The notes beneath the pieces are model-generated. The model saw only the letters and a list, made by a program, of their open reading frames with translations. It ran no database searches and was not told the origin of the DNA. The position numbers and the translations under genes were made by a program. Positions 37,184 to 38,515 of a stretch of 64,000 nucleotides of DNA are shown here, piece by piece. How positions within the stretch are numbered: the first letter of the stretch is position 1; each line of letters opens with the position of its first letter. The DNA is from Salipiger abyssi (GTDB lineage: Bacteria; Pseudomonadota; Alphaproteobacteria; Rhodobacterales; Rhodobacteraceae): NCBI RefSeq assembly GCF_017311415.1, contig NZ_JAEKIS010000011.1:1-64000 (forward strand), written 5' to 3'.

Positions 37184-37825
37184 ATGACGCGCAGACATCT
37201 TCCCGGCATTATAGCCATGGCCGCCATCGTGCTGGCCTCCAATATCCTGGTGCAGTTCCTGTTCGGCCAGTGGCTGACCTGGGGCGCCTTCACCTATCCC
37301 CTCGCCTTTCTCGTCACCGATGTGATGAACCGCCTCTACGGCGCGCAGGCCGCGCGCAAGGTGGTCTTTGCCGGCTTTGTCGTCGGCGTCATCTGCTCGC
37401 TGATCGGCACGCAGATCATGCTGGAGGGCGATGGCTACACCTATCCGGCGGTCACCCTGCGCATCGCGCTCGGCTCAGGCCTCGCTTTCCTGGTGGCGCA
37501 GCTGATGGATGTGGCGATCTTCGACCGCTTGCGCAACGGCGCCTGGTGGCGCGCACCGCTGGCCTCGACGCTGGTGGGCAGCTCGCTCGACACCGCGATC
37601 TTCTTCACCATCGCCTTCTCCGGCGCGCTGAGCTTTATCGAGCCCGCCAACGATGTGAGCTGGGCCGGCGAGACGCTGCCGCTGCTGGGCTCGGGCCCGC
37701 CGGTACCGCTCTGGGTGTCGCTGGGCGTGGCCGACTGGCTGGTTAAGCTGACGCTCGCCATCATCGCGCTGATCCCCTTCCGTTTGATCGTTTCGAAGGC
37801 AGTTTCTGCACGGTCTTTTGCCTGA
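37184..37825 (+). CDS. VUT/queuosine-precursor transporter-like membrane protein
   Basis: The 213-residue protein has six hydrophobic segments and the sequence LTWGAFTYPLAFLVTDVMNRLYG typical of the YhhQ/VUT family (partly quoted as TYPLAFLVTDVMNRLYG), whose E. coli member imports queuosine precursors used in tRNA modification. I placed the start at the ATG at 37184, after a leaderless-looking gap. A short inverted repeat GCAAAA-N4-TTTTGC follows the stop. Confidence 0.88.
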   Translation: MTRRHLPGIIAMAAIVLASNILVQFLFGQWLTWGAFTYPLAFLVTDVMNRLYGAQAARKVVFAGFVVGVICSLIGTQIMLEGDGYTYPAVTLRIALGSGLAFLVAQLMDVAIFDRLRNGAWWRAPLASTLVGSSLDTAIFFTIAFSGALSFIEPANDVSWAGETLPLLGSGPPVPLWVSLGVADWLVKLTLAIIALIPFRLIVSKAVSARSFA

Positions 37826-37906
37826 GCTGCAAAAAACGTTTTGCGAAAGCGGTCGTCCATGGCACGCTAGTCTTGCGTTTTTCAACAGCTGAAAGGAGGT
37901 GATCCA

Positions 37907-37963
37907 GTGTCTAGAGAAACATTGGAGAGAGGTGTCGGAACAGTTCGGAGGGCAGAACGCTAG
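37907..37963 (+). CDS. 18-codon micro-ORF with near-perfect ribosome binding site
   Basis: GTG at 37907 starts an 18-residue frame rich in Arg and Glu, ending TAG. It is preceded by AAAGGAGGTGATCC, complementary over 14 nt to the conserved 16S rRNA 3' end, at ideal spacing. The peptide has no recognisable family. It may be a leader peptide whose translation status controls the RNA downstream, or a ribosome-binding decoy. Confidence 0.5.
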   Translation: MSRETLERGVGTVRRAER

Positions 37964-38031
37964 GGCAGCCCCTGGCGTAAAGGAAACCCGAATTGGCATT
38001 GCCTAACCGGCACGCCTCCTTGACGTCTCGA

Positions 38032-38070
38032 ATGGGTCGCCCGACAGGCAGGGCGGCCCATTTCTGTTTT
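38032..38070 (+). terminator. Rho-independent terminator before arfB
   Basis: An 11-bp stem ATGGGTCGCCC/GGGCGGCCCAT (one G-U pair) with an 8-nt loop is followed by TTCTGTTTT. It lies 69 bp after the micro-ORF stop and 26 bp before the arfB start. Confidence 0.85.
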
Positions 38071-38083
38071 GCACACAACCCCC

Positions 38084-38089
38084 TATAAC
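38084..38089 (+). promoter_or_regulatory. Candidate -10 element for arfB
   Basis: TATAAC ends 6 bp before the arfB ATG, with no ribosome binding site between, so a transcript from it would be leaderless. A convincing -35 is lacking (TTTCTG at 38061-38066 is the best at 17-bp spacing). Confidence 0.35.
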
Positions 38090-38095
38090 GCAGCC

Positions 38096-38515
38096 ATGTT
38101 GCAGATCACCGACCGCATCCAGATCGAAGACTGGGAAATCACCGAACAGTTCATCCGTGCCTCCGGGCCGGGCGGGCAGAACGTGAACAAGGTCTCCTCC
38201 GCCGTGGAGCTGCGCTTCGAGGCGGAGCGCTCTCCCAACCTGCCCGCGCCGGTAAAGACGCGGCTGCGCAAGCTCGCGGGGCGGCGCTGGACCAAGGAGG
38301 GGGCGCTGGTGCTTCAGGTCGACGAGACCCGCAGCCAGGCCCGCAATCGCGAAATCGCCCGCGAGCGGCTGGCCGAGCTGATTCGCAAGGCGCTGGAAAA
38401 GCCCCGGCGCCGCATCCCGACCAAGCCGACGCTGGGCTCGAAACGGCGGCGGCTGGAAGGCAAGAAGGCGCGCGGCGAGGTCAAGGCGCTGCGCGGCAAG
38501 GTCGATCCCGACTGA
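38096..38515 (+). CDS. arfB: Alternative ribosome-rescue factor (release-factor-like, ArfB/YaeJ)
   Basis: The 139-residue protein has the catalytic GGQ of release factors in SGPGGQNVNK near residue 25 and a basic C-terminal tail (TLGSKRRRLEGKKARGEVKALRG; partly quoted as LGSKRRRLEGKKARGEV) that in ArfB enters the empty mRNA channel of a stalled ribosome. It hydrolyses peptidyl-tRNA without a stop codon. Start at the ATG of MLQITDR. No ribosome binding site is visible upstream, and the micro-ORF/terminator unit precedes it by 26 bp. Confidence 0.94.
   Translation: MLQITDRIQIEDWEITEQFIRASGPGGQNVNKVSSAVELRFEAERSPNLPAPVKTRLRKLAGRRWTKEGALVLQVDETRSQARNREIARERLAELIRKALEKPRRRIPTKPTLGSKRRRLEGKKARGEVKALRGKVDPD

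Follow-up and report, generated by a model that had tools for sequence, protein, structure and literature searches.

Does the short open reading frame that precedes arfB in Salipiger abyssi, behind an unusually long complement to 16S rRNA, belong to a leader of that gene, to a small mRNA or to an RNA with a role of its own? The original prediction, drawn from the letters of the window (the whole stretch of 64,000 nucleotides analysed here), had placed a 16S complement, an 18-codon frame, a CCTCC segment able to pair with the complement and a terminator at this site, and had envisaged either a ribosome-sensing leader in a control circuit for arfB or an independent small RNA. Direct reading of the S. 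abyssi stretch bore out the complement: AAAGGAGGTGATCC is present at 37892-37905, and the match to the reverse-complemented 3' end of the 16S rRNA of the organism itself (16S sequence taken from L002) is 17 nt long, GAAAGGAGGTGATCCAG, at 37891-37907 on the plus strand. This segment is referred to below as the extended Shine-Dalgarno sequence (SD). The exact 14-mer AAAGGAGGTGATCC has two copies in the 5.2 Mb assembly, the present site and the 16S gene. The 11-nt core AGGAGGTGATC was found at 25 genomic places; the 8 that we inspected all lay within long open frames, measuring 308-818 codons from stop to stop.

A DNA search of nearly one genome per genus identified a homologue in 237 of 295 Rhodobacteraceae genomes, and the family search returned one place per genome, one genome having two. 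Conservation beyond the close species, on which the original prediction depended, was therefore found, and it reached across the class (see below). A second set of genomes was drawn from the order, all of them labelled Rhodobacteraceae, and searched for a pattern made of the 16S complement, the start codon and an inner GGAG. AAGGAGGTGNTCNARTG followed by GGAG was detected in 157 of 196 genomes and the reversed-pattern control in none. We aligned 130 Rhodobacteraceae copies, the better-scoring part of the 237 matches (30 obtained by the family search and 100 fetched), and refined the position of each by the best SD fit. Counting G-U pairs, 117 of the 130 copies contained a run of at least 15 nt complementary to 16S and 116 a run of at least 17, and with strict Watson-Crick pairing the run was at least 15 in 84 copies and just 11 in 31; these counts are biased towards SD conservation by the choice of better-scoring matches and by the use of the best SD fit to refine each position.

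The mini-ORF (37907-37963, plus strand; VSRETLERGVGTVRRAER) reads GTG TCT AGA ... CGC TAG, its GTG start sitting at the end of the 17-nt 16S complement and its TAG stop closing a frame of 18 codons. This length, already part of the original prediction, was retained in 123 of the 130 Rhodobacteraceae copies, the remaining seven having 17-24 codons. The start was GTG in 127 copies and TTG in 3; four copies had lost one base between the SD and the start and kept the 18-codon frame all the same (three with TTG, one with GTG). The second codon was TCN in 116 of the 123 frames, with all four third bases represented. All three stop types were used among the 123 frames (TAG 57, TGA 41, TAA 25), and on a tree of VUT, the protein encoded next to the RNA, built for the 116 copies of the 130 that combined an 18-codon frame with a usable VUT sequence, we counted about 48 changes of stop type (31 at the second base and 36 at the third). 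TGG occurred in none of these 116 copies, the expectation being 18.7 if the two bases evolved independently at the fitted rates, and none of 5000 simulations gave zero TGG. These results provide strong comparative evidence that a ribosome has to stop at the end of the mini-ORF, and the frame of the Rhodobacteraceae RNA looks translated.

Several features inside and around the frame were followed separately. An overlapping internal GTG frame, located after the GGAG in the +1 frame, was rejected as a conserved element because its lengths were scattered from 1 to 97 codons and because the TAA of a downstream CTAAC motif occurred in each of the three registers with respect to it (38, 46 and 29 copies). 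The inner TTGGAG at 37922-37927 had GAG in all 123 Rhodobacteraceae homologues, TTGGA forming an arm of the start hairpin described below, and ACA was likewise found at codon 12 (37940-37942) in 123 of 123. The last G of TTGGAG and the codon-12 ACA are not accounted for by the helices that we tested.

The encoded peptide gave a different picture from the frame ends. Using 90 of the 123 Rhodobacteraceae copies, dN/dS was 0.83 for codons 2-18 (0.75 and 0.69 in the two false frames) and 0.63 for codons 2-14 (0.61 and 0.83 in the false frames), giving no clear sign of protein-level selection on the Rhodobacteraceae peptide. Peptides were constant within clades of the class, with MSHGSA.. in sphingomonad-type loci and VSHCH..TWI.AS in others, and the 14 codons VSxTKRCHLAGIAR were nearly invariant in 12 of 12 Bradyrhizobium-type loci. 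Compared by eye, peptides from different clades and orders were unlike each other, the SD being alike. The comparison suggests that evolution preserved the ends of the frame and not the peptide, so that being translated would itself matter. In the consensus fold of Bradyrhizobium-type loci (including L163, L173, L177, L181, L199, L219 and L224), a TCACCT within the frame pairs with the SD.

In S. abyssi, arfB starts at 38096 and its product matches Pfam RF-1. The gene was found downstream on the same strand in 107 of the 130 Rhodobacteraceae copies, at 178-295 nt after the SD in 98 of them, and was undetected within the fetched stretch in the other 23; a cis-acting leader or attenuator is expected always to lie upstream of the gene it controls. 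The VUT gene was located upstream in 124 of the 130 copies. Since this second neighbour is equally steady, plain synteny explains the proximity of arfB. Among 206 class loci carrying the SD motif, 14 had arfB downstream, all of Rhodobacteraceae type as judged by title, family label or peptide, and none of the loci outside this type did. The arfB control circuit of the original prediction did not survive this comparison, and a leader of arfB was rejected as the main reading. L091 and L169 were the two loci of the 206 outside the Rhodobacteraceae type that had arfB nearby at all, upstream and divergent, some 84-585 nt before the SD.

The limits of the transcript are consistent with an RNA of its own. 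A sigma-70 consensus scan of 37780-38120 detected no promoter-like site, the S. abyssi copy having TTGCG in place of TTGAC, so the promoter assignment rests on the relatives. Among these, 89 of 130 had TTGAC in the 90 nt before the SD, with 68 of the sites at -47 to -49, and a single one of the 130 had it in a control stretch; a hexamer of the form.A...T followed 14-20 nt after TTGAC in 83 of 130, most commonly as CAGGCT, CACCTT or CACGCT. The corresponding putative promoter in S. abyssi consists of TTGCGA (37841-37846), a spacer of 16 nt and CACGCT (37863-37868), all on the plus strand. Downstream, the terminator scan found an intrinsic-terminator-like hairpin at 38030-38063 (shuffles of the region average 0.6 such hairpins), which with its T-rich tail occupies 38030-38070 on the plus strand. 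In alignment A1, a covariance alignment of 65 of the 130 family copies, this terminator stem accounts for most two-sided changes. The RNA thus likely has its own promoter and terminator, the transcript probably beginning near 37875-37880 and ending near 38070 (about 190 bases). It appears to be an RNA gene in its own right rather than a leader of arfB, which lends support to the independent small RNA of the original prediction.

The predicted RNA is more stably folded than shuffled sequences. Its minimum-energy fold had -81.3 kcal/mol, compared with -63.3 for shuffles (standard deviation 4.9; z -3.65), and pairs AAGGAGGT (37893-37900, plus strand) within the SD with GCCTCCTT (38014-38021, plus strand). 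The second arm mimics the 16S anti-SD and belongs to CGCCTCCTT (38013-38021), the end of a conserved segment. This tail mimic is CACCUCC in most relatives and CGCCUCC in the S. abyssi copy. It overlaps a conserved 3' element, CCTAACCGGCACGCCTCC (38002-38019, plus strand), marked by CTAAC; 114 of 130 relatives have this motif 70-200 nt downstream of the SD, against 2 of 130 for a control stretch. The SD/CCTCC self-pairing of the original prediction held up as a possibility throughout the family: all 7 of 7 pairs could form after the stop in 123 of the 130 Rhodobacteraceae copies, against 30 of 130 for a control stretch 200 nt further on. The consensus fold of the 65 aligned copies likewise paired the SD with the 3' CACCUCC, with 0-6 of 65 sequences breaking any given pair. 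Covariation of the SD/anti-SD helix and the terminator was the check suggested with the original prediction. Two-sided changes lay mostly in the terminator stem; the masking helix showed one-sided changes alone (G-U, U-G) and no two-sided covariation in the 65 copies of A1, because the SD is invariant.

Comparison of masking duplex energies with shuffled sequences indicated that this pairing is not shared by all clades. The mean z was -1.56 for 60 Rhodobacteraceae copies (18 of 60 at 5% or better) and -0.63 for SHC-type loci (8 of 57), and in the sphingomonad-type loci the duplex was no better than shuffles (mean z -0.15, 0 of 33 at 5%). The sphingomonad-type loci thereby rule out masking of the SD as a class-wide principle; it is clade-specific.

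Other helices were assessed by comparing the pairs formed within each copy with those formed after swapping segments between copies. Helix P3 joins AGTTCGG (37942-37948, codons 12-14 of the mini-ORF) with CCGAATT (37988-37994, after the stop), both on the plus strand. Across 123 copies with 49 segment types it formed a mean of 6.37 pairs in its own combinations and 5.52 in swapped ones (standard deviation 0.065), and a control segment showed no covariation in the same test (5.55 vs 5.58). As P3 bridges the stop codon, a ribosome reading to the stop must open it. A further helix between the end of the ORF and the segment after the stop was slightly above its swaps (5.21 vs 4.95, highest swap 5.16). 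Helix P2, GTGTCGG with CCGGCAC, was discarded (own 5.51, swapped 5.55, no covariation). Around the start codon, the predicted fold contains a hairpin (37903-37910 with 37919-37926, plus strand) whose consensus pairs were held in most of the 65 sequences, two-sided changes being nearly absent. Pairing of the start region with the terminator side was evident in SHC-type loci (own 7.53, swapped 6.49, standard deviation 0.14), hardly above swaps in the sphingomonad type (7.09 vs 6.79) and absent from the SS group (6.17 vs 6.60).

The one informative Rfam match of the RNA region was RF01867, CC2171, described as a Caulobacter sRNA. The match covers 37883-38060 on the plus strand and the full length of the model (1-159 of 159) with 40.6 bits and an E-value of 2.2e-7 in 341 nt, the gathering score of 75 not being reached by the S. 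abyssi copy. The sole Rfam match of the 64,000-nt window at its gathering score was a tRNA at 298-371 on the minus strand. In a class sample of 289 genomes, RF01867 was found at an E-value of 1e-3 or better in 61 and above the cut-off in 9. The motif alone was found in 62 of the same genomes, 48 being shared with RF01867 and 75 forming the union. The one match among 14 control genomes for RF01867 was Caulobacter vibrioides. In a phylum sample, counting table entries by motif match alone, the motif occurred in 8 of 213 genomes outside the class compared with 49 of 86 within it.

A GTDB scan with the SD motif gave at least 119 loci, with 80 titles among the matches listed; these named Rhodobacteraceae, Sphingomonadales, Hyphomicrobiales, Caulobacterales and Rhodospirillales, and some read 'Proteobacteria bacterium'. 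Judged by their names, the other titles are alphaproteobacterial. Loci with the same SD and mini-ORF thus appear to occur in at least five alphaproteobacterial orders. Seven of 15 GTDB-scan loci tested (L136, L152, L170, L178, L187, L192 and L209) passed the RF01867 cut-off, and all seven had the same long SD and a mini-ORF of 21-25 codons; having been pre-selected by the SD motif, they reveal an overlap of the two sets and do not describe every RF01867 member. The S. abyssi copy, 40.6 bits against 75, differs from CC2171 in the peptide, the start-region pairing and the position of the anti-SD mimic.

Removal of duplicates and cut-off stretches reduced the 206 class loci with the motif to 184. 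In these motif-selected loci the frames had 14-39 codons, apart from two of 57 and 59, and the 16S-complement runs of the class groups, themselves picked by motif, were mostly 15-18. Frame length was clade-specific: 31 of the 33 sphingomonad-type loci had 18 codons, all 12 Bradyrhizobium-type loci had 14 and the 57 SHC-type loci had 19-27. The two exceptions, L084 and L194, were placed in the group 'other'; there the same long SD precedes frames of 57 and 59 codons that resemble signal peptides by eye, with no mini-ORF. No complete frame was found behind the SD motif of L134. Pelagibacterium luteolum has an FMN riboswitch (L195:5129-5280) about 260 nt past the SD of the RNA.

We propose that the transcript (about 37880-38070) is a ribosome-docked, sRNA-like RNA, the Rhodobacteraceae form of the alphaproteobacterial CC2171-related RNA, switched by docking and translation, a reading to which we give roughly even chances. 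Comparison of sequences supports its components, namely the extreme SD, the obligate start and stop, the structure that reading would disrupt and, in this family, a tail mimic able to hide the SD; the switch itself and its targets are put forward more tentatively. The near-full-length SD, with up to 17 pairs to the 16S 3' end, would recruit 30S subunits to the 18-codon mini-ORF, and what comparison suggests has been preserved is a ribosome starting and stopping at fixed places, whichever peptide results. In the ribosome-free state, the SD would pair with the downstream mimic of the 16S tail and the ORF would pair across its own stop. Docking of a 30S subunit may outcompete the short internal helix; from the geometry, docking and translation should break the masking helix and P3. 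Since the frame looks translated and a helix straddles its stop, translation should remodel the RNA, and it may keep it open. Opening would expose the 3' arm CCUAACCGGC...CCUCC, a candidate for pairing with the SDs of other mRNAs, and the action or stability of the RNA would then follow the number of free ribosomes. A bolder extension, which we regard as doubtful, is a ribosome-gated riboregulator conserved in Alphaproteobacteria at large and equipped with the near-perfect 16S-tail complement and, in several clades, with its mimic. Free 30S subunits would displace the mimic, translation of a mini-ORF whose own sequence is immaterial would hold the structure open, and the CCUCC arm, once released, would repress SDs on other mRNAs.

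The conserved frame, start and stop, together with peptides that stay constant inside clades such as the Bradyrhizobium type, could be those of a plain small mRNA whose peptide is the product and whose long SD merely gives a high yield. We consider this unlikely: dN/dS over codons 2-18 did not fall below that of either other frame and over codons 2-14 lay between the false frames, peptides of different orders were unlike despite a like SD, and a number of conserved codons lie in segments that pair in the RNA. Somewhat harder to credit is a decoy that would capture small subunits in a duplex of 14-17 bp and so reduce initiation at other sites, with the ORF and stop needed just to release them. 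The long complement in nearly all family copies, reaching the start codon, would suit such a role, but it would require RNA levels comparable with those of ribosomes, self-pairing can mask the SD in several clades, and the conservation of both start and stop points to translation, not parking.

Two further readings are weak. That the RNA is a leader or attenuator of arfB appears very unlikely; the downstream position of the gene in most family copies speaks for it, and against it stand the terminator-like hairpin between the two, the family copies without a detected arfB and the distribution among the class loci. Less credible still is an antisense RNA directed at the 16S 3' end, non-coding and serving maturation or protection, with an incidental frame. 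The complement does cover the 16S tail, but the start codon, the fixed length and stop changes that avoid TGG would be left unexplained. The ribosome-docked RNA remains our preferred reading.

Staphylococcus aureus belongs to a different phylum from the alphaproteobacteria. It too has small ORFs with extended SDs, which, to judge from the abstract of that report, are not one orthologous RNA (PMC13009471). The listings and excerpts consulted on CC2171/RF01867 contained no account of a frame or a 16S complement for the family. In the Rfam outputs seen, CC2171 is typed as an sRNA gene and no frame is mentioned; it is listed among tabulated Mesorhizobium sRNAs (PMC5596092) and is also tabulated in the Rfam 15 paper (PMC11701678). 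Profiling in Caulobacter found two predicted ncRNAs to be actually translated, unnamed in the text consulted (PMC4117421), and CC2171 may be one of them. In S. meliloti, 33% of 54 new small frames lay on annotated sRNAs (PMC10117765). Translation of this RNA may therefore have been recorded in existing data and passed over.

The Sinorhizobium dual-function sRNA and leader rnTrpL resembles the present RNA as a short RNA with a small translated frame, translation being predicted here; according to the part of the report consulted, it is leaderless and derives from the trpE attenuator (PMC10117765), unlike the extreme SD and apparently stand-alone gene described here. The frame of a dual-function sRNA is translated, and the evolution of the start and stop suggests the same for the mini-ORF. 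CCUCC-type arms that could pair with SDs are also a feature of the anti-SD sRNAs with CCUCCUCCC loops (RFMSmelA075 and R. sphaeroides RS0680a; PMC3927594) and of SisA-D of Caulobacter (PMC12559287), as far as the excerpts consulted describe them. On direct reading, CCTCCTCCC was absent from 37880-38070, so no CCUCCUCCC hairpin loop was present; unlike in those sRNAs, the arm here can pair with its own SD and adjoins a mini-ORF. With anti-SD arms reported in these alphaproteobacterial sRNAs, a CCUCC arm acting in trans is reasonable, not proven.

Collectively, the data suggest that what has been catalogued as a Caulobacter sRNA family is an RNA that is translated from an almost maximal SD and is distributed over several alphaproteobacterial orders. 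With its frame ends fixed, its peptide near neutral and a helix spanning the stop, it bears an evolutionary signature that distinguishes a signal given by translation from a peptide product. If the proposed gate is true, the RNA would be a direct sensor of ribosome availability. If the riboregulator is also true, it would act as a global gauge in which spare ribosome capacity leads to lower initiation, translation being the input and no peptide signal being involved.
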